Source of the DNA: Hyphomicrobiales bacterium
Lineage (GTDB): Bacteria > Pseudomonadota > Alphaproteobacteria > Rhizobiales > Rhizobiaceae
Direction: 5' to 3'
Length of the DNA stretch: 44,512 nucleotides
Assembly (NCBI GenBank): GCA_024224595.1
Contig: JAAENI010000468.1
Location: forward strand, 1 to 44,512
Shown here: positions 4,405 to 41,224 of the stretch, piece by piece
Position numbering within the stretch: position 1 is the first letter of the stretch
How the letters are laid out: every line of letters starts with the position of its first letter
Position numbers and translations under genes: made by a program
Notes under the pieces: model-generated
Seen by the model: only the letters and a program-made list of their open reading frames with translations
Told to the model about the DNA's origin: nothing
Database searches by the model: none

Positions 4405-4417
4405 AACTGGAAAATTG

Positions 4418-4714
4418 GAGCGCTTTCGATGAAATACGAACCGTTTGATGCCCTGTATTGGCCCACTCAGCTAGACGCGGAGCGCCGCGCGATGCTCATC
4501 CATCGGGCAAGTTTCGCAACGACGCTGATGGGCCAATACAGGACACCCGCCTTTTTACATAAGCTATTGAAACAATTTGATAGTCGGGCCGTTCGAAATT
4601 GTCCAGCATTGTTGAATCGCGCTTGTGGTGCTTTGGTAGCACAGCGCACAATTCGCCTGGCAAGTGAACAATTTCGAATCGGTCAAACGATTCATATTTC
4701 ATCGAAAGTGCTCT
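4418..4714. repeat. ~296-bp intergenic inverted-repeat (RIME/MITE-like) element between moaC and moeA
   Basis: Terminal arms gagcgctttcgatgaaatacgaaccgtttga (4419-4449) and the reverse complement of tcaaacgattcatatttcatcgaaagtgctc (4684-4714): 28/31 identical. Nested inverted repeats inside: cctgtattggccca (from 4452)/tgggccaatacagg (~4529-4542), and ttcgaaattgt (~4593)/acaatttcgaa (~4669). Confidence 0.85.
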
Positions 4715-4716
4715 AA

Positions 4717-5943
4717 ATGATTGATGGCCTGATTCCGGCAACCGATGCCCTGCAAATAATCCTGCGCGATGCCGCACCTCAAACCAGTGAATTTATAAAG
4801 CTGCGCCAGGCAAATGGCCGCGTGCTTAAATCTGACCTCAACGCATTGCGAACCCAGCCTCCATTTGATGCAAGTGCCATGGATGGCTATGCGGTACGCC
4901 AGCAGGATATTGCTAACATACCGGCCAGACTGAAAGTTATCGGACAATCAGCTGCTGGTCATCCATATCGCGGCAGTATCGGCAATAATGAAGCGATACG
5001 GATATTTACCGGTGCTCCAGTGCCCGATCAAACTGATACGATAATTATTCAGGAACATACCCGGGCAGATGGAGGTCATGTCAACATTCTCAAGGGAAAC
5101 AACCCGGGTAAATTTATTCGCCAGGCAGGTTTGGACTTTCGCGAGGGTGAATGTCTGCTGCAATCAGGAAGAGTAATCGACCCCCAGTCAATTTCACTGG
5201 CTGCTTCAATGAACCACCCGCAACTGGAGGTTTGGAAAAAACCCGTTGCGGCAGTATTGGCGACGGGTGATGAACTTGTAATGCCGGGCAATTCACTGGC
5301 ACAAGGTGAAATCATCGCGTCCAACAGCTTTGCGTTGGCCTCAATTGTTGAAGATGCCGGTGGTGAGGCACTCGATATGGGGATTGCCAAAGACAAAGTG
5401 GAAAGTCTGATTGAACACGTGCAAAGTGCGATCAATCAGGGTGCAGATATGATTATCACCATTGGTGGTGCCTCAGTTGGAGACCATGATCTTGTTCTGC
5501 CGGCCATGCAGAAGATTGGTTTTGAATTTGAGTTTTCCAAAATTGCCATGCGCCCGGGTAAACCCTTTCTGTTTGCCAAAAACCAGTCAACAGGTAAAAC
5601 CATTCGCATGCTGGGCCTGGCCGGCAATCCGGTGTCTTCAATCATCGCGGGACAGATTTTCGTTCGCCCACTGGTTAATGCGATGGCCGGTCTGCCTGAG
5701 GCCTATTCCAAACCACAACAGGCAATTTTGGGGTGCGATTTAAAAGCCAATGACGAACGGCAGGAATATATGCGGGTATTGATCAAGGTTGATGACAACG
5801 GAACACTGATTGCAACACCCTTCGAGACCCAGGATTCATCAATGTTGGCAAATCTGAACAGAGCAGATGCTTTGCTCATCCGTGCGGTAAATGCTCCGGC
5901 TGCAAGTTCTGGTGAGGCTTGCGAAATAGTGTTGTTGAAATAG
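4717..5943 (+). CDS. moeA: molybdopterin molybdenumtransferase
   Basis: 408 aa; PPFDASAMDGYAVR, ATGDELV, GGASVGDHD, MRPGKPFLFA, GLAGNPVSS motifs. Confidence 0.97.
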   Translation: MIDGLIPATDALQIILRDAAPQTSEFIKLRQANGRVLKSDLNALRTQPPFDASAMDGYAVRQQDIANIPARLKVIGQSAAGHPYRGSIGNNEAIRIFTGAPVPDQTDTIIIQEHTRADGGHVNILKGNNPGKFIRQAGLDFREGECLLQSGRVIDPQSISLAASMNHPQLEVWKKPVAAVLATGDELVMPGNSLAQGEIIASNSFALASIVEDAGGEALDMGIAKDKVESLIEHVQSAINQGADMIITIGGASVGDHDLVLPAMQKIGFEFEFSKIAMRPGKPFLFAKNQSTGKTIRMLGLAGNPVSSIIAGQIFVRPLVNAMAGLPEAYSKPQQAILGCDLKANDERQEYMRVLIKVDDNGTLIATPFETQDSSMLANLNRADALLIRAVNAPAASSGEACEIVLLK

Positions 5944-15088: not shown

Positions 15089-15360
15089 CCTTTCAAATAC
15101 ACCAGCTGGCGCTTGTAGAACACGCATTGAGATGAGACGCAAATCATCACGCGAAGTCTTTGAATTGCCAACTTACCCCGCATGCCAATGGGCAATAACA
15201 GAACATCCTGACATTGAGAATCCATTGAATTCATCCAATAGTCGCCAATCGCGAATACATTCCTTTCGGTTGTCATCCAAATATTAACGCAAATGTGGGC
15301 TGATTTCATTATCAACAATTATGATCTTGAAATCTGATAAGTCGTTTTGCCTCGATTATT

Positions 15361-15646
15361 AAGAGTCTGTTCAATAATACACAACAGGGTTTGATTTTGC
15401 TTAAATTGTTCAATACCAAGGATATTTTCACAGCTCAGGGTGGTGCCCTTTGCAAGAGAATATTCGCCGATAGTGGGCAATTTGTGCAAAACCCCCATAT
15501 GCAAAACCTAATGGGCGGGCCATATTTTGGTGCTTGTTGGGACAAATCAAGTTTGAAGGCAACCAGCCTGCGGCACTTGATTTGTCCCAATGATCCCTGA
15601 AAATATGACCCGTCAAACCCTGTTGTGTAATCTTGAACAGACTCTT
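15361..15646. repeat. ~288-bp inverted-repeat element (MITE-like) carrying a central long hairpin
   Basis: Arms agagtctgttcaataatacacaacagggtttga (15362-15394) and the reverse complement of tcaaaccctgttgtgtaatcttgaacagactct (15613-15645), 31/33 identical. Internal palindrome gggccatattttggtgcttgttgggacaaatcaagt / acttgatttgtcccaatgatccctgaaaatatgaccc. Confidence 0.85.
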
Positions 15647-15867
15647 AGTGTCTGACAATTGAACAAAAAGCCTGCGTCAGCAAGAATATTATCAGTTTCC
15701 ATGTCTTCATCCTGAACATTTGATCCGTTATAATTTCGAATGACTAACATATCTGTCAATTATTCAACATTTGCAATCGGTGCGACCACTAGACTGCTGA
15801 TAAAGACAGCCAAAAGGGGTGTGAGCTGCATCGAATGAATAAGCAACAAAGTGTGGATGTTTTGAAC

Positions 15868-18334: not shown

Positions 18335-18422
18335 TGTATGCTCCTTGTTGGTGTGATGTTGAAAACAGTACAATATTCGAGCAATAATTGGGTAATTTCA
18401 CAAATTTTGGACATAAACTTCA

Positions 18423-18455
18423 AGAGTCTGTTCAAGAATACACAACAGGGTTTGA
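18423..18455 (+). repeat. Repeat arm (same family as element at 15.36 kb)
   Basis: agagtctgttcaagaatacacaacagggtttga. Confidence 0.85.
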
Positions 18456-18632
18456 GTATTCGTAAGCCTGTGTCGATGATACTGGTATATCTCGTGTGTG
18501 TTTTGTTCGATATTGGAGTAAATCAGGAAATTATTCATTGAATATTTGATTATGGCCCAAGAGACTATTATCCTTATTCCCGCGCCAATTGATGTTTTCG
18601 TGACGGTCAAGTTGCGCGCTGTTTGAAGCAAT

Positions 18633-21011: not shown

Positions 21012-21043
21012 TCAAACCCTCTTGTGTATTCTTGAAAAGACTC
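21012..21043 (-). repeat. Repeat arm, inverted relative to 18423-18455
   Basis: tcaaaccctcttgtgtattcttgaaaagactc; reverse complement matches the 18424-18455 arm at 30/32. Confidence 0.85.
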
Positions 21044-22302: not shown

Positions 22303-22424
22303 ACTCATCGTGAGAAATGGTTCTTCTGGCAACGAAACTGCATGCCAATGAGCTTCGGTAGTGCTGCTGCTTCACGGCAGGGTTTGAAAAAGTCCAATTT
22401 TCAAACAATCGTTTTGCATAGCCC

Positions 22425-22848
22425 CTATCAGGCTTAGTTTGAATCATTTGACTTGTTTTTCACGCTCGCTGGGCTGCGTTATGCTTCGCTTATGGTCATC
22501 CACACTGAAAGGAGCGGTCGTACCGGTTTCGGTGTAATCTCCTGTTTTAGGCTTTGATGCCGTGGCCAGCCTGCCCCGTCACATCGCCGCCAACCGTAAT
22601 CGTCAGGCCGCAGTGCCTTCAGCGTGAGCATCAATACGCTCATCACCGCCCGTCACCGCGCTTGCGCCCGTGATGATCGTCAGACTGGTGTCGGCGTTGT
22701 AGTCATTAATACCGTCTTCGTTGGTTCCGGTTATTCTGGATATCGTTACGCCCTGTTGGTGGTCAGTCAGACCACTTGTACAGGACGCGCCTTGCCAGCA
22801 AACGTGAATAAACGGTCAAATGATTCCGTGTAAACAAGAAACGGTCTA
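22425..22848. repeat. Inverted-repeat-bounded element containing a degenerate gene fragment
   Basis: Left arm tatcaggcttagtttgaatcatttgacttgtttttcacgctcgctgg; reverse complement of right arm ctagaccgtttcttgtttacacggaatcatttgaccgtttattcacgtttgctggc; shared core gaatcatttgac...tcacg. Confidence 0.65.
22535..22770 (-). pseudogene. Degenerate fragment of a repetitive adhesin/autotransporter-like passenger domain
   Basis: Reverse strand reads ISRITGTNEDGINDYNADTSLTIITGASAVTGGDERIDAHAEGTAA(frameshift)LTITVGGDVTGQAGHGIKA, resembling autotransporter-type TVGGDVTGxxGxGI repeats; no intact ORF. Confidence 0.45.
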
Positions 22849-24051
22849 GGCCGCGTTTGCGCCCTGGTCATCTTTCTGACTAGTTATGTACTCACAAAAA
22901 CTCGAGGCATCCATCGGTTTTGCAAAATAGTAGCCCTGTGCATATTCTATTCCCATCTCGCGTATGATATCCCAGGTCTGACGGTCTTCCACACCCTCCG
23001 CAACGAGACACATTCCCTGCTGGCGTGCCAGTTTGATCGCAGCGACGACTACTTCCTTGGAAAAATTGTCCGTTGCAATTGTTGATACATATGATTTGTC
23101 CAATTTCAATTCTGAATATGGGAAATCTTTCAATATATTGATGTTTGATGAACCGGTGCCAAAATCATCAATAGCAATGTCGAAATCATATATTCTTAAT
23201 CTTGACAGGACTTCCAGCGTCGCTGGTTCAAGATTTAATATACTGTTTTCGGTAATCTCAAAGCTGATTGATTTGCTGGTGACATTAGCGCTTTTCATAC
23301 GTGCCATCAATTGGGCGGGAAGAGCTGTTTTGTTGATCATCGTTGGGGGAAGGTTAAAGGCAAAAATCAGATCCGACCGTAGCGGAAGGAAGCGGCTTAA
23401 ATCTGATAGCACTTTCTCAAAAACAAGAAATGTCAATTCTTCCATGAAACCTTTTTTTTCGGCAAATGGTATGAATAAATTCGGGGCGATAGTTCCATAA
23501 TCAGGTTTTATCCAACGTACCAGCACTTCGGCACCGATGATCCGGCCATTTTGTACATCTACTTTGGGTTGATAGTAGGGTTTAAACTCCCTGTTTTTCA
23601 GTGCTTTTGCAAAATCGGCGTTCGTACATTTATACTCTCCAGCGTTATTCACCAGAGCAGTTTTGGGTTGATTTGAAAGAAACAGGGCATCAAGAGCATT
23701 TTTTTTCAACGGCTTGTTAATCCCGCCAATCAATTGCAAGTTGTGCAATTTCGCCAGACGGGCAGCATGGTCTATCAAATTGCCTTTTATCCCGGATATG
23801 ATTGCCAATTTTCCGGAATAGCCGAGTTCCTTCAAATGACGCATGAATTCGATTCCATCCATGTTCGGCATCTGAATATCACTAACGATCAGATCAAAGT
23901 CAGTCGATTTTTTTGACAACATGTCCAGTGCCACGGTGGAATCTTCAGCGCCGTGAATGGATTTTACTTTGAGGCCAGCAAAATATGCGGTGAGCACTGC
24001 AATCTGGACCGGGTCATCGTCAACAATTAGAACTGAATTATAATTTTGCAT
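22846..24051 (-). CDS. response regulator with EAL domain (cyclic-di-GMP phosphodiesterase)
   Basis: REC domain (LIVDDDPVQIAVL, DLIVSDIQMPNMDG) plus EAL domain (GAEVLVRW, FEITENS, IDDFGTGSSN, KLDKSYV, VAEGVED). Confidence 0.93.
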   Translation of the reverse strand: MQNYNSVLIVDDDPVQIAVLTAYFAGLKVKSIHGAEDSTVALDMLSKKSTDFDLIVSDIQMPNMDGIEFMRHLKELGYSGKLAIISGIKGNLIDHAARLAKLHNLQLIGGINKPLKKNALDALFLSNQPKTALVNNAGEYKCTNADFAKALKNREFKPYYQPKVDVQNGRIIGAEVLVRWIKPDYGTIAPNLFIPFAEKKGFMEELTFLVFEKVLSDLSRFLPLRSDLIFAFNLPPTMINKTALPAQLMARMKSANVTSKSISFEITENSILNLEPATLEVLSRLRIYDFDIAIDDFGTGSSNINILKDFPYSELKLDKSYVSTIATDNFSKEVVVAAIKLARQQGMCLVAEGVEDRQTWDIIREMGIEYAQGYYFAKPMDASSFCEYITSQKDDQGANAA

Positions 24052-28791: not shown

Positions 28792-28818
28792 CTATCAGGC
28801 TTAGTTTGAATCATTTGA
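28792..28818 (+). repeat. Half-copy (27 bp) of the arm at 22425
   Basis: ctatcaggcttagtttgaatcatttga identical to 22425-22451. Confidence 0.85.
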
Positions 28819-34991: not shown

Positions 34992-36515
34992 ATGCAGAAT
35001 ATTGTTGTAGCTACCATGACCCAGTTGATCGATACACGTGACCCCGAACCTAAGAGATTTATTGCCGGTGCTACCGGTGATTGGGAGGTCATTATTGGCC
35101 TGGAGGTGCATGCGCAGGTGTCTTCTCGCTCGAAACTTTTTTCAGGTGCTTCAACGCAGTTTGGTGCACCGGCAAATTCTAACGTTTCGATGGTTGATGC
35201 GGCAATGCCAGGCATGTTGCCGGTGATCAACGAAGAATGCGTGGCGCAGGCGGTTCGAACCGGGTTGGGGCTGAAAGCCAAGATCAACCTGCGTTCAGTT
35301 TTTGATCGCAAAAACTATTTTTATCCCGACCTGCCGCAGGGCTATCAGATATCACAGTTTAAAGATCCAATTGTCGGTGAGGGCGTGATCAAGATTGAAG
35401 TGGGGCCTGATAAGCAAGGCAATTATGAAGAAGTGGAGATTGGTGTCGAGCGTTTGCACCTTGAACAGGATGCAGGCAAATCGATGCATGATCAGCATCC
35501 AACCATGAGTTTCGTTGATTTGAACCGGACCGGCATCGCGTTGATGGAAATTGTCTCCAAACCCGATATACGCTCATCTGATGAAGCCAGGGCCTATGTC
35601 ACCAAATTGCGTACGATATTGCGATATCTGGGTACCTGCGATGGTAATATGGAGCAGGGATCAATGCGTGCTGACGTCAATGTTTCAGTGAGAAAGCCTG
35701 GTGGGGATTTTGGTACGCGATGTGAGATCAAGAATGTCAATTCGATCCGTTTCGTTGGACAGGCTATTGAAGCGGAGGCTCGTCGTCAAATTGCGGTGAT
35801 CGAGGATGGCGGAGTAATTGATCAGGAAACACGCCTTTATGATCCGGTTAAAGGTGAAACCCGCTCAATGCGTTCCAAGGAAGATGCCCATGATTATCGC
35901 TATTTTCCGGATCCAGATCTGTTGCCTTTGGAATTTTCTCAAAGCTATGTTGATGAATTAGCCAGCGATCTGCCTGAACTGCCCGATGACAAGCATGCCC
36001 GATTGCGTGATGAAATGGGATTGTCTGCCTATGACGCGGCGATCCTGGTTTCTGAAAAATCTATCGCTGATTATTATGAAAAAGTAGCCGAGGGACGTGA
36101 CGGAAAGCTTGCCGCCAACTGGGTTATCAATAATCTGCTCGGCAAACTGAAGGAGGAAGACTTTTCCATCAAGACTTCTCCGGTTTCTCCTGATCAGATA
36201 GGCGGTATTATTGATCTGATCAAGGCCAATACTATATCCGGTCAGATTGCCAAAGAATTGTTCGACATAGTTTGGTGTGAGGGGGGTGATCCAGCTGACA
36301 TTGTTGAACAACGCGGGTTGAAACAGGTGACCGATACCGGTGCGATCGAAGCTGCGGTTGACGAGATTATTGCTGCAAACCCTGACAAAGTTGCAGAAGT
36401 TCGCGAGAAACCGAAAATGGCCGGATGGTTTGTTGGTCAGGTGATGAAAGCGACTGGTGGTAAAGCCAGCCCGCAAATGGTCAATCAGCTTTTGCGAGAT
36501 AAATTAGAGCTTTAG
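34992..36515 (+). CDS. gatB: Asp-tRNA(Asn)/Glu-tRNA(Gln) amidotransferase subunit B
   Basis: [44 protein letters not shown]; likely start at [15 protein letters not shown] (35016). Confidence 0.97.
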
Positions 36516-36803
36516 ACCGTATCTTCTTCACACGGATTCATTTGACCGACTTTTTACGTTTGCTGGCAAAGCATGTTTTTCGCCCCGGAAGCATTTGGGG
36601 TCTGTATGAACACAAGAAAAGCATAACGTGGTCGAGAAAGCGTGGAAAGCCGACCTTTGCCTAAAAAACCGGGGTGACCAATCCAGTCCATCTGTGGCGT
36701 TGTAAAACTTGTTCGATCAACCAGATCGCACTGGGTTCTACTCATTGCCGAGTGAACGGGATTGATCCATCAAATGCTTCCGTGTAGAGAAGATGCGGTC
36801 TAA
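36512..36803. repeat. ~292-bp intergenic inverted-repeat element after gatB
   Basis: Left arm ttagaccgtatcttcttcacacggattcatttgaccga; right arm reverse complement ttagaccgcatcttctctacacggaagcatttgatgga; left arm also matches the reverse complement of the element end at 22.8 kb, extending through acgtttgctggcaa. Confidence 0.85.
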
Positions 36804-39422: not shown

Positions 39423-39498
39423 AGGGGTATAGCTCAGTTGGTAGAGCGACGGTCTCCAAAACCGTAGGTCCACAGTTCGAGTCTGTGTGCCCCTGCCA
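39423..39498 (+). tRNA. trnW: tRNA-Trp (CCA anticodon), CCA encoded
   Basis: aggggtatagctcagttggtagagcgacggtctCCAaaaccgtaggtccacagttcgagtctgtgtgcccctgcca; cloverleaf arms pair. Confidence 0.97.
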
Positions 39499-39528: not shown

Positions 39529-41224
39529 GTAACCGGGGCAAAAAGGCGGGCAGTTTTTTTATCGCCGGGGATTCCCTTTTTACTCAAGTTATGAATCAAT
39601 CGACATATGGCCGAATCGCCCCTTGATATTGACGCACTGGATATTGCTGCTCTGAAGGCACTGATTTTGGAGTTGCTTGAGCAGGGTGCGGTGCGCGATG
39701 GCGAGAATGCGGCATTGCGCGAAGATATCCGTCGCCTTAAAGGCCTGAAAGGACCACCGGATATCAAGCCTTCGGGAATGAATAAGAAAGCGCGTTCACG
39801 TGCCAAGGCGGGGCGGGCCGCTAACAAGCGGCGGCGGGGCAAGAAGAAGGACCGAGTTGTGATTGATGAAAAGCGCGTAGTCACGGCTGATGCACCAGCT
39901 GGCTCTCGCTTTAAGGGCTATGAAGATTATCTGGTCCAGGATTTGATCTGCCGACCTCATAGTGTTTTGTTACGGCGCGAGCGCTGGCTTATGCCAGATG
40001 GCAGCTATGTTGTAGCGCCCCTGCCGGCGGGCACGCGAGGACATTTTGGCCCCGAACTTCGCCGTTTCATCCTCGCGCATTATCATGGGCTGCAGACCAG
40101 CGTTGAACGACTGGTAACATTGTTGGCTGATCTTGGAGTAGATATCTCCAAACGCCAGATCATGCGGCTGTTGAATGATGGTCAGGAGGGTTTTGTCGCT
40201 GAGAATAATGCGGTGTTACACGCCGGGCTGGAAAGCGCGCCCTGGGTCAGTGTTGATGACACCGGTGCGCGCCATCGCGACCGCAATGGCGTGACGACGC
40301 AGATTGGCAATGATGCTTTCGCATGGTTTGGAACCAGCTTTTCCAAGAGCCGCCTGAACTTCCTGTCGCTGTTGCGGGCAGGCCATAAGGATTATGTGCT
40401 GAATGAAGCGGTCTTTTCCTACATGGCTAAACTCAATCTGAGCGGGGTGGTGATAGCTCTTCTGGCAGGTGCACCCAAGCAGCACTTTGCCGATGAGGCC
40501 GCATGGCAGGCCGAACTTCACCGTCTTGGTATTGCGGACTTGAAAGTTCATCCCGATCCGCTACGCGTTGCCAGCGAAGGCGCATTATGGGGTGCCTTGT
40601 CGCATCACGGGCTGCTGGCGGATACTGTAATCCTCTCCGATGACGCTGGTCAGTTCAACATTGGAACCCATGCCCTGTGCTGGGTTCATGCCGAACGGTT
40701 GATCCACAAGCTGGATACCTTCACAGACCACCAGCGGCGGGAAAAGGAACGTATCCAAGCCCGGTTGTGGTGGTTCTATGCCGATTTGAAAGAATATCGC
40801 AAAATGCCAACGCGATTGCGGGCCAGACAATTGGCGCGGCGCTTTGATGCGCTGTTTACCAGCAAAACAGGCTTTGTAACCCTGGATCGGCTACTGGCTC
40901 GTCTTCATGCCAAACGCGATCATTTGCTCGTCGTCCTGGATCACCCGCATGTACCGCTCAATACCAACGGTTCGGAAAATGATATCCGTGCCATGGTCAC
41001 CCGGCGAAAACTCTCCGGTGGTACAAAATCTGAAACCGGCAGGCAGGCCAGAGACACTTTCATCGGACTAATCAAGACGTGCCGCAAGCTCGGCATCTCA
41101 TACTGGAATTATCTCGGTGATCGCCTCAAAGTGCCTGGTGCAACTGCCGTGCCCTACCTACCCGGACTCGTAAGACAACGATGCCTGGAAATGGCATGAA
41201 TGCCTGCCTTTTTGCCCCGGTTAC
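39529..41224 (+). mobile_element. IS66-family-like insertion sequence, single transposase ORF
   Basis: TIRs gtaaccggggcaaaaaggcgggca (39529-39552) / tgcctgcctttttgccccggttac (41201-41224), 23/24 identical, starting GTAA as in IS66; encloses the transposase ORF; no obvious 8-bp target duplication. Confidence 0.9.
39607..41199 (+). CDS. IS66-family-like transposase
   Basis: LKALILELLEQGAVRDGENAALREDIRRLKG N-terminus; WVSVDDTGARHRDRNGVTTQIGN; CWVHAERLIHKL; NTNGSENDIRAMVTRRKLSGGTKSETGR. Confidence 0.92.
   Translation: MAESPLDIDALDIAALKALILELLEQGAVRDGENAALREDIRRLKGLKGPPDIKPSGMNKKARSRAKAGRAANKRRRGKKKDRVVIDEKRVVTADAPAGSRFKGYEDYLVQDLICRPHSVLLRRERWLMPDGSYVVAPLPAGTRGHFGPELRRFILAHYHGLQTSVERLVTLLADLGVDISKRQIMRLLNDGQEGFVAENNAVLHAGLESAPWVSVDDTGARHRDRNGVTTQIGNDAFAWFGTSFSKSRLNFLSLLRAGHKDYVLNEAVFSYMAKLNLSGVVIALLAGAPKQHFADEAAWQAELHRLGIADLKVHPDPLRVASEGALWGALSHHGLLADTVILSDDAGQFNIGTHALCWVHAERLIHKLDTFTDHQRREKERIQARLWWFYADLKEYRKMPTRLRARQLARRFDALFTSKTGFVTLDRLLARLHAKRDHLLVVLDHPHVPLNTNGSENDIRAMVTRRKLSGGTKSETGRQARDTFIGLIKTCRKLGISYWNYLGDRLKVPGATAVPYLPGLVRQRCLEMA

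Follow-up and report, generated by a model that had tools for sequence, protein, structure and literature searches.

A short hairpin transposon with a YTAR target borders native stop codons in a Hyphomicrobiales genome and a same-genus relative

The window (the whole stretch of 44,512 nucleotides analyzed here, from a Hyphomicrobiales draft genome) contains two genes that end in the same repeat. One encodes a response regulator-EAL (RR-EAL) protein of 401 amino acids (positions 22846 to 24051, minus strand; Pfam Response_reg, 1.2e-16, and EAL, 1.4e-63), and the other is gatB (34992 to 36515, plus strand), full length at 507 amino acids (Pfam GatB_N, 1.6e-116, and GatB_Yqey, 3.9e-50) and, in a gatB search, closest to genes of Rhizobium and Agrobacterium at about 80% identity. 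The sequence-only reading had placed the RR-EAL stop inside the conserved terminus of a repeat and had described another, independent gene as ending in that repeat. Both observations hold: positions 22848 to 22815, read on the minus strand, are TAGACCGTTTCTTGTTTACACGGAATCATTTGAC, whose TAG (22848 to 22846) ends the 401-aa open reading frame (ORF), and the Pfam matches support both genes as real. The same motif begins at the gatB stop (TAG, 36513 to 36515, plus strand), and its two occurrences in the window compare with none expected from shuffled window sequence.

At gatB, the repeat is one end of a complete two-ended element of 290 bp (36513 to 36802, plus strand; copy A), with both ends matched, no ORF, and one end-to-end hairpin with a predicted folding energy of −111.9 kcal/mol (z = −6.35). 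Its left terminal inverted repeat was matched with a relaxed pattern at 36513 to 36545 (plus strand; the exact motif spans 36513 to 36546), and its right terminal inverted repeat was matched at 36770 to 36802 (minus strand). At the RR-EAL gene, the terminal inverted repeat (22815 to 22848, minus strand; copy B) is an exact motif match, and a repeat search extended the family-matching part to 60 nt (22789 to 22848, minus strand; 85% complementary to 36513 to 36572). The search also placed a degenerate opposite end at 22416 to 22472 (plus strand; 70% complementary to 22795 to 22851), which resembles a second repeat family, with many matches of that part alone in a same-genus genome. Copy B (22419 to 22848, about 430 bp) thus looks like a composite element, with about 60 nt matching the family and a far end, near 22419, like another family. 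An identical 27-nt stretch, CTATCAGGCTTAGTTTGAATCATTTGA, belonging to a further repeat family, lies at 22425 to 22451 and at 28792 to 28818, and a similar stretch follows the stop of the cytochrome d1 gene at locus L268. The non-family sequence within copy B at 22500 to 22790 partly resembles, by eye only, a fragment of a repetitive surface-protein gene.

Further copies were sought in the draft genome that contains the window (G000) and in the one same-genus genome used (G001). The exact motif occurs four times in G000; with up to three mismatches allowed, there were 92 matches (the end of copy B among them), compared with 0 for a reversed-pattern control, and G001 contained 53 repeat ends. 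Two-ended copies span 96 to 290 bp (besides copy A, 265, 212, 186, 162, and 96 bp), have terminal inverted repeats of about 33 bp at both ends of the element, and contain no transposase-type ORF. They fold end to end, the 162-nt copy with a predicted energy of −107 kcal/mol (z = −17.8). The family hardly occurs outside the genus: no repeat ends were found in 39 other relatives, and among 398 genomes of the bacterial family only two further genera had any (one and two ends, respectively), all of them diverged. Searches of plasmids, phages, and viral contigs for the element gave no match, and an Rfam search of the window left it unmatched. Short, transposase-free copies, terminal inverted repeats, and many dispersed copies, with empty sites in the relative, are the marks of a MITE, and the present repeat forms the inverted termini of such a nonautonomous hairpin transposon, a new family of a known kind.

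Other inverted repeats occur in these sequences. An element of about 302 bp at 4415 to 4716 directly adjoins the ATG that starts at 4717. With about 21 of 33 positions (by eye) like the present repeat at its right end, TAGAGCACTTTCGATGAAATATGAATCGTTTGA, it may represent a diverged sister family. A third repeat family (TAAGAGTCTGTTCAA..TACACAACAGGGTTTGA) has a two-ended copy of about 288 bp at 15360 to 15647 and single ends at 18422 to 18465 and 21012 to 21043. Elsewhere in G000 (C436:4887, L055), an end of the present repeat abuts TGTTGTGTATTCTTGAACAGTCTCT, which is the end of the family found at 15360, an insertion nested at another element's end. Two unlinked copies in G000 (C89:6055, L038, and C890:26270, L075) have the same first 128 bases, in which an end of the present family is joined to the end of another repeat (..GTCCGACAGACTGCTAG), suggesting a mobile chimera with unlike ends. 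A class-II aldolase gene in G000 (C238:18782-18839, L100) has at its stop a near-perfect hairpin of 58 bp in which repeat ends alone remain. Lastly, an inverted repeat of 24 nt (96%) at 39529 to 39552 and 41201 to 41224 surrounds an ORF (39607 to 41199) near a tRNA (39423 to 39495).

In the present family, C or T preceded the border TA at 83 of 84 ends, compared with 42% for all TA dinucleotides in the fetched sequence, and the rejoined target of two-ended copies was YTAR in 22 of 25 cases (CTAG, 9; CTAA, 7; TTAG, 3; TTAA, 3). CTAG was the commonest target (9 of 25) and yet is the rarest YTAR form among control sites, a preference like that of IS630. Because the outer Y and R bases differ between left and right ends (in copy A, left TTAG and right CTAA), the pattern suggests that TA (2 nt) within YTAR, rather than YTAR itself, is the duplicated target unit, in a comparison that draws on diverged orthologs and on a search pattern that starts with TA and so partly presupposes TA at both ends. 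IS701-like insertion produces a 4-bp duplication; such a duplication of YTAR was rejected, since the two ends of a copy have unlike inner and outer bases.

No transposase with matching ends was found in G000 or G001. The DDE_3 matches (two fragments in G000 and five in G001) had no matching repeat ends, and the genes inside or beside those one-ended copies that were checked were ordinary, with no transposase among them. Both assemblies often break at these repeats, and an autonomous partner may have been lost or left unassembled. Because no transposase with these ends was found, it is the TA/YTAR target pattern alone that points to the IS630/Tc1-mariner superfamily, to which the element probably belongs.

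Ten of the two-ended copies lie at stop codons; with the element taken out and the flanks rejoined, nine of them show a native stop at the border codon (seven TAG and two TAA). At gatB, the flanks minus the element read CTT TAA, so that a TAA stop has been turned into TAG; the G001 ortholog ends CTT TAG with no element, and the C terminus is typical of the protein family, named relatives terminating no more than a few residues away. The RR-EAL ortholog in G001 likewise lacks the element and has a native TAG at the same residue and an equal length (C termini, ...SLDISAA-TAG in G001 and ...DQGANAA-TAG in the window). As judged from these comparisons, the RR-EAL and gatB stops are native positions that the element has re-made, the RR-EAL TAG (22846 to 22848, minus strand) reading as the target TA plus the element's first base, G. 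The sequence-only reading had noticed neither this nor the two-ended hairpin MITE (36513 to 36802) to which the repeat belongs. In another case (C469), the copy sits between a convergent recO gene and ABC ATPase gene, and one CTAG formerly common to both has given way to one TAG for each.

The idea that these elements truncate genes through premature stops and so reshape proteins is directly illustrated by one copy of the ten, at a G001 gene of the metallo-beta-lactamase fold (C20), where the rejoined sequence reads GCA TAT TAT CAT... and the TAG was created by the element. As an account of the family, however, it is highly improbable, given the native stops in the other nine and the eight genes for which a G001 ortholog was compared (those for RR-EAL, GatB, RecO, a periplasmic binding protein, a cytochrome d1 protein, an aldolase, a cell-wall hydrolase, and a 78-aa protein). 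Those orthologs have stops of their own (five TAG, two TGA, and one TAA) with no end of the present family at the stop; the C terminus aligned within about 2 residues in seven of the eight, and all eight end at or within about 3 residues. The aldolase homolog, which is only 57% identical over the aligned part, ends a few residues later, and a different repeat end starts 15 bp downstream of its stop; at the G001 cytochrome d1 gene, a repeat end starts about 300 bp downstream. A Pfam family was found in 16 of the 20 stop-bordering genes of both genomes, domains were complete in the genes checked, and orthologs with longer C termini were not seen at most stop-bordering genes. Because the orthologs end at about the same place with their own stops, the element does not truncate the proteins, except that of G001 C20.

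To place these cases in context, genes were called on 804 kb (532 kb of G000 and 272 kb of G001) with our own ORF caller rather than curated annotation, and all other YTAR sites in the 804 kb, weighted by the observed targets, served as controls. Among 132 usable ends in both genomes, 20 lay exactly on a called stop, 1 was inside a gene, and the rest were intergenic. The single interior end contrasts with 73% of YTAR sites (P ~ 1e-72), and only 3 ends lay 50 bp or less upstream of a gene start, compared with 17% of control sites. The sequence-only reading had proposed, as one possibility, that selection favors insertions preserving termination; the near absence of ends from gene interiors and the avoidance of gene starts bear out a selective component, and these depletions probably reflect the removal of harmful insertions. 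Gene 3' ends were faced by 89 of 127 non-interior ends versus 40% expected (P ~ 1e-11), and the 3'-facing ends were enriched at every distance, not at 0 alone.

The other possibility raised from the sequence was a target preference for stop codons or CTAG-like sites, and the two halves of that proposal fared differently. The CTAG-like, or more broadly YTAR, preference is clear from the target counts given above, whereas no support was found for stop codons being preferred in themselves. At first sight, a transposase with a specificity for stop codons or translation-termination regions, over and above the YTAR motif, would account for the 20 of 127 non-interior ends (15.7%) that fall exactly on a stop, compared with 7.6% expected for noncoding YTAR sites (P = 0.0015). 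Three of the 20 cases are weak (the C207 gene, without a Pfam family, is possibly a spurious ORF, C238 is the 58-bp hairpin variant, and G001 C170 has 5 mismatches), and this unconditional excess gives P = 0.016 with 17 cases and P = 0.059 with 15. Once ends are conditioned on facing a gene 3' end, however, stops account for 20 of 89 (22.5%) versus 18.8% expected (P = 0.22); together with the 3'-facing enrichment at all distances and the 85% of ends that lie off stops, this makes stop-codon targeting very unlikely. Because the stop excess vanishes under that conditioning, targeting is unneeded: the coincidence with stops is as predicted from the target motif plus the removal of harmful insertions, which suffice.

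Pure coincidence, with no mechanism behind the two gene-end cases, was what a genome-wide majority of copies away from gene ends had been expected to indicate. That majority was indeed found, with about 85% of ends not exactly on a stop, and yet mere coincidence does not follow from it, since a stop is about twice as likely to be hit as a noncoding site with the same motif. TAR is mechanically part of the motif, the G that is lacking always comes from the element, and the 20 cases extend over two species, with empty orthologous sites and P = 0.0015 over matched sites; we consider coincidence the least probable of all the readings.

We therefore favor an IS630/Tc1-mariner-type MITE with a YTAR target, combined with purifying selection, as the best overall explanation, with a probability of about 0.88. 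Under this explanation, a transposase supplied in trans would insert the element at the TA of Y-TA-R, duplicating TA. YTAR is its own reverse complement and thus presents TAR (TAA or TAG) on both strands; many noncoding YTAR sites are gene stops, and because YTAR holds TAR on each strand, native TAA and TAG stops are good targets. A YTAR site read in frame 0 within a gene has to be that gene's stop. As the element opens with G (TA|GACCG...CGGTC|TA), insertion at a stop always restores TAG at that codon, whichever side it lies on, and leaves the protein as it was, while selection would remove insertions inside genes or beside starts, leaving survivors clustered at gene 3' ends and stops.

Two further readings were weighed. 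In one, the hairpin would act as an mRNA 3' element (a terminator, a stabilizer, or an RNase III site), and copies at stops would be positively selected, in keeping with the very stable hairpins predicted to begin at the stop codon itself (−107 and −111.9 kcal/mol for the 162-nt copy and copy A) and with the enrichment of copies at gene 3' ends. Neither window copy, however, has an intrinsic-terminator pattern, the depletion at starts and interiors accounts for the 3' bias without any benefit, and the orthologs lack the element; we regard this reading as quite unlikely. It is also unlikely, if somewhat easier to entertain, that the element ends have been shaped so that YTAR insertion always rebuilds a stop on both strands (Y-TA|G), with native stops, including a CTAG shared by convergent genes, serving as protein-neutral safe harbors, and with the stop lying within the base of a long hairpin in the mRNA, an arrangement that might influence termination or mRNA decay.

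Relative to known systems, the MITE with YTAR targeting described here has several partial counterparts. ISY100 and IS630 insert into TA and duplicate TA (PMC2170065), and IS630 is described there as preferring the TA in CTAG (Tenzen & Ohtsubo 1991, as cited in PMC2170065); insertion at TA, as the flanks suggest it for our element, would be shared with both, and the CTAG preference is shared with IS630, whereas both are autonomous, about 1 kb long, and have a transposase, which the present copies lack. MITEPsy1 of Pseudomonas syringae, a short MITE inserting at CTAG or YTAA (PMC3189936), has a reported 4-nt duplication and IS5-like origin, whereas here the unlike outer Y and R bases fit a 2-nt TA duplication. 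RUP, BOX, and QMITE repeats were set beside our element by their descriptions rather than by sequence. RUP of Streptococcus pneumoniae, which inserts at TA and is tied to IS630-Spn1, is similarly small, noncoding, and present in many copies with terminal inverted repeats (PMC2229807); it differs in having a named transposase source with matching ends, of which none was found here, and the sequences are unrelated as far as seen. BOX repeats of S. pneumoniae encode the stop codon of 36 genes with no evidence of truncation (PMC3049150), the same outcome of a gene stop within a repeat, although BOX is modular (boxA/B/C) with ends like those of ISSpn2, in contrast to our YTAR-target element. QMITE1 and QMITE2 of Coxiella burnetii overlap the last 1 to 50 bp of functional genes such as ubiB, recN, and ruvB (PMC5896051); they too are MITEs overlapping functional gene ends, but of another bacterium and another sequence, and some Coxiella insertions lengthen the protein rather than rebuild the stop. 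The BOX and QMITE precedents make the stop-codon effect a variation on one already published, and in the present case the sequence explains it simply.

Overall, we see a neat but for the most part ordinary consequence of target choice and natural selection. It offers a quantified worked case of apparent stop-codon targeting that can be reduced to a TAR-containing motif plus selection against genic and start-proximal insertions. For annotation, it is a warning that mobile elements can encode gene 3' ends while the protein stays unchanged, with TAA stops becoming TAG. At the convergent pair on C469, the overlapping stop codons of the two genes have been cleanly separated by the element.
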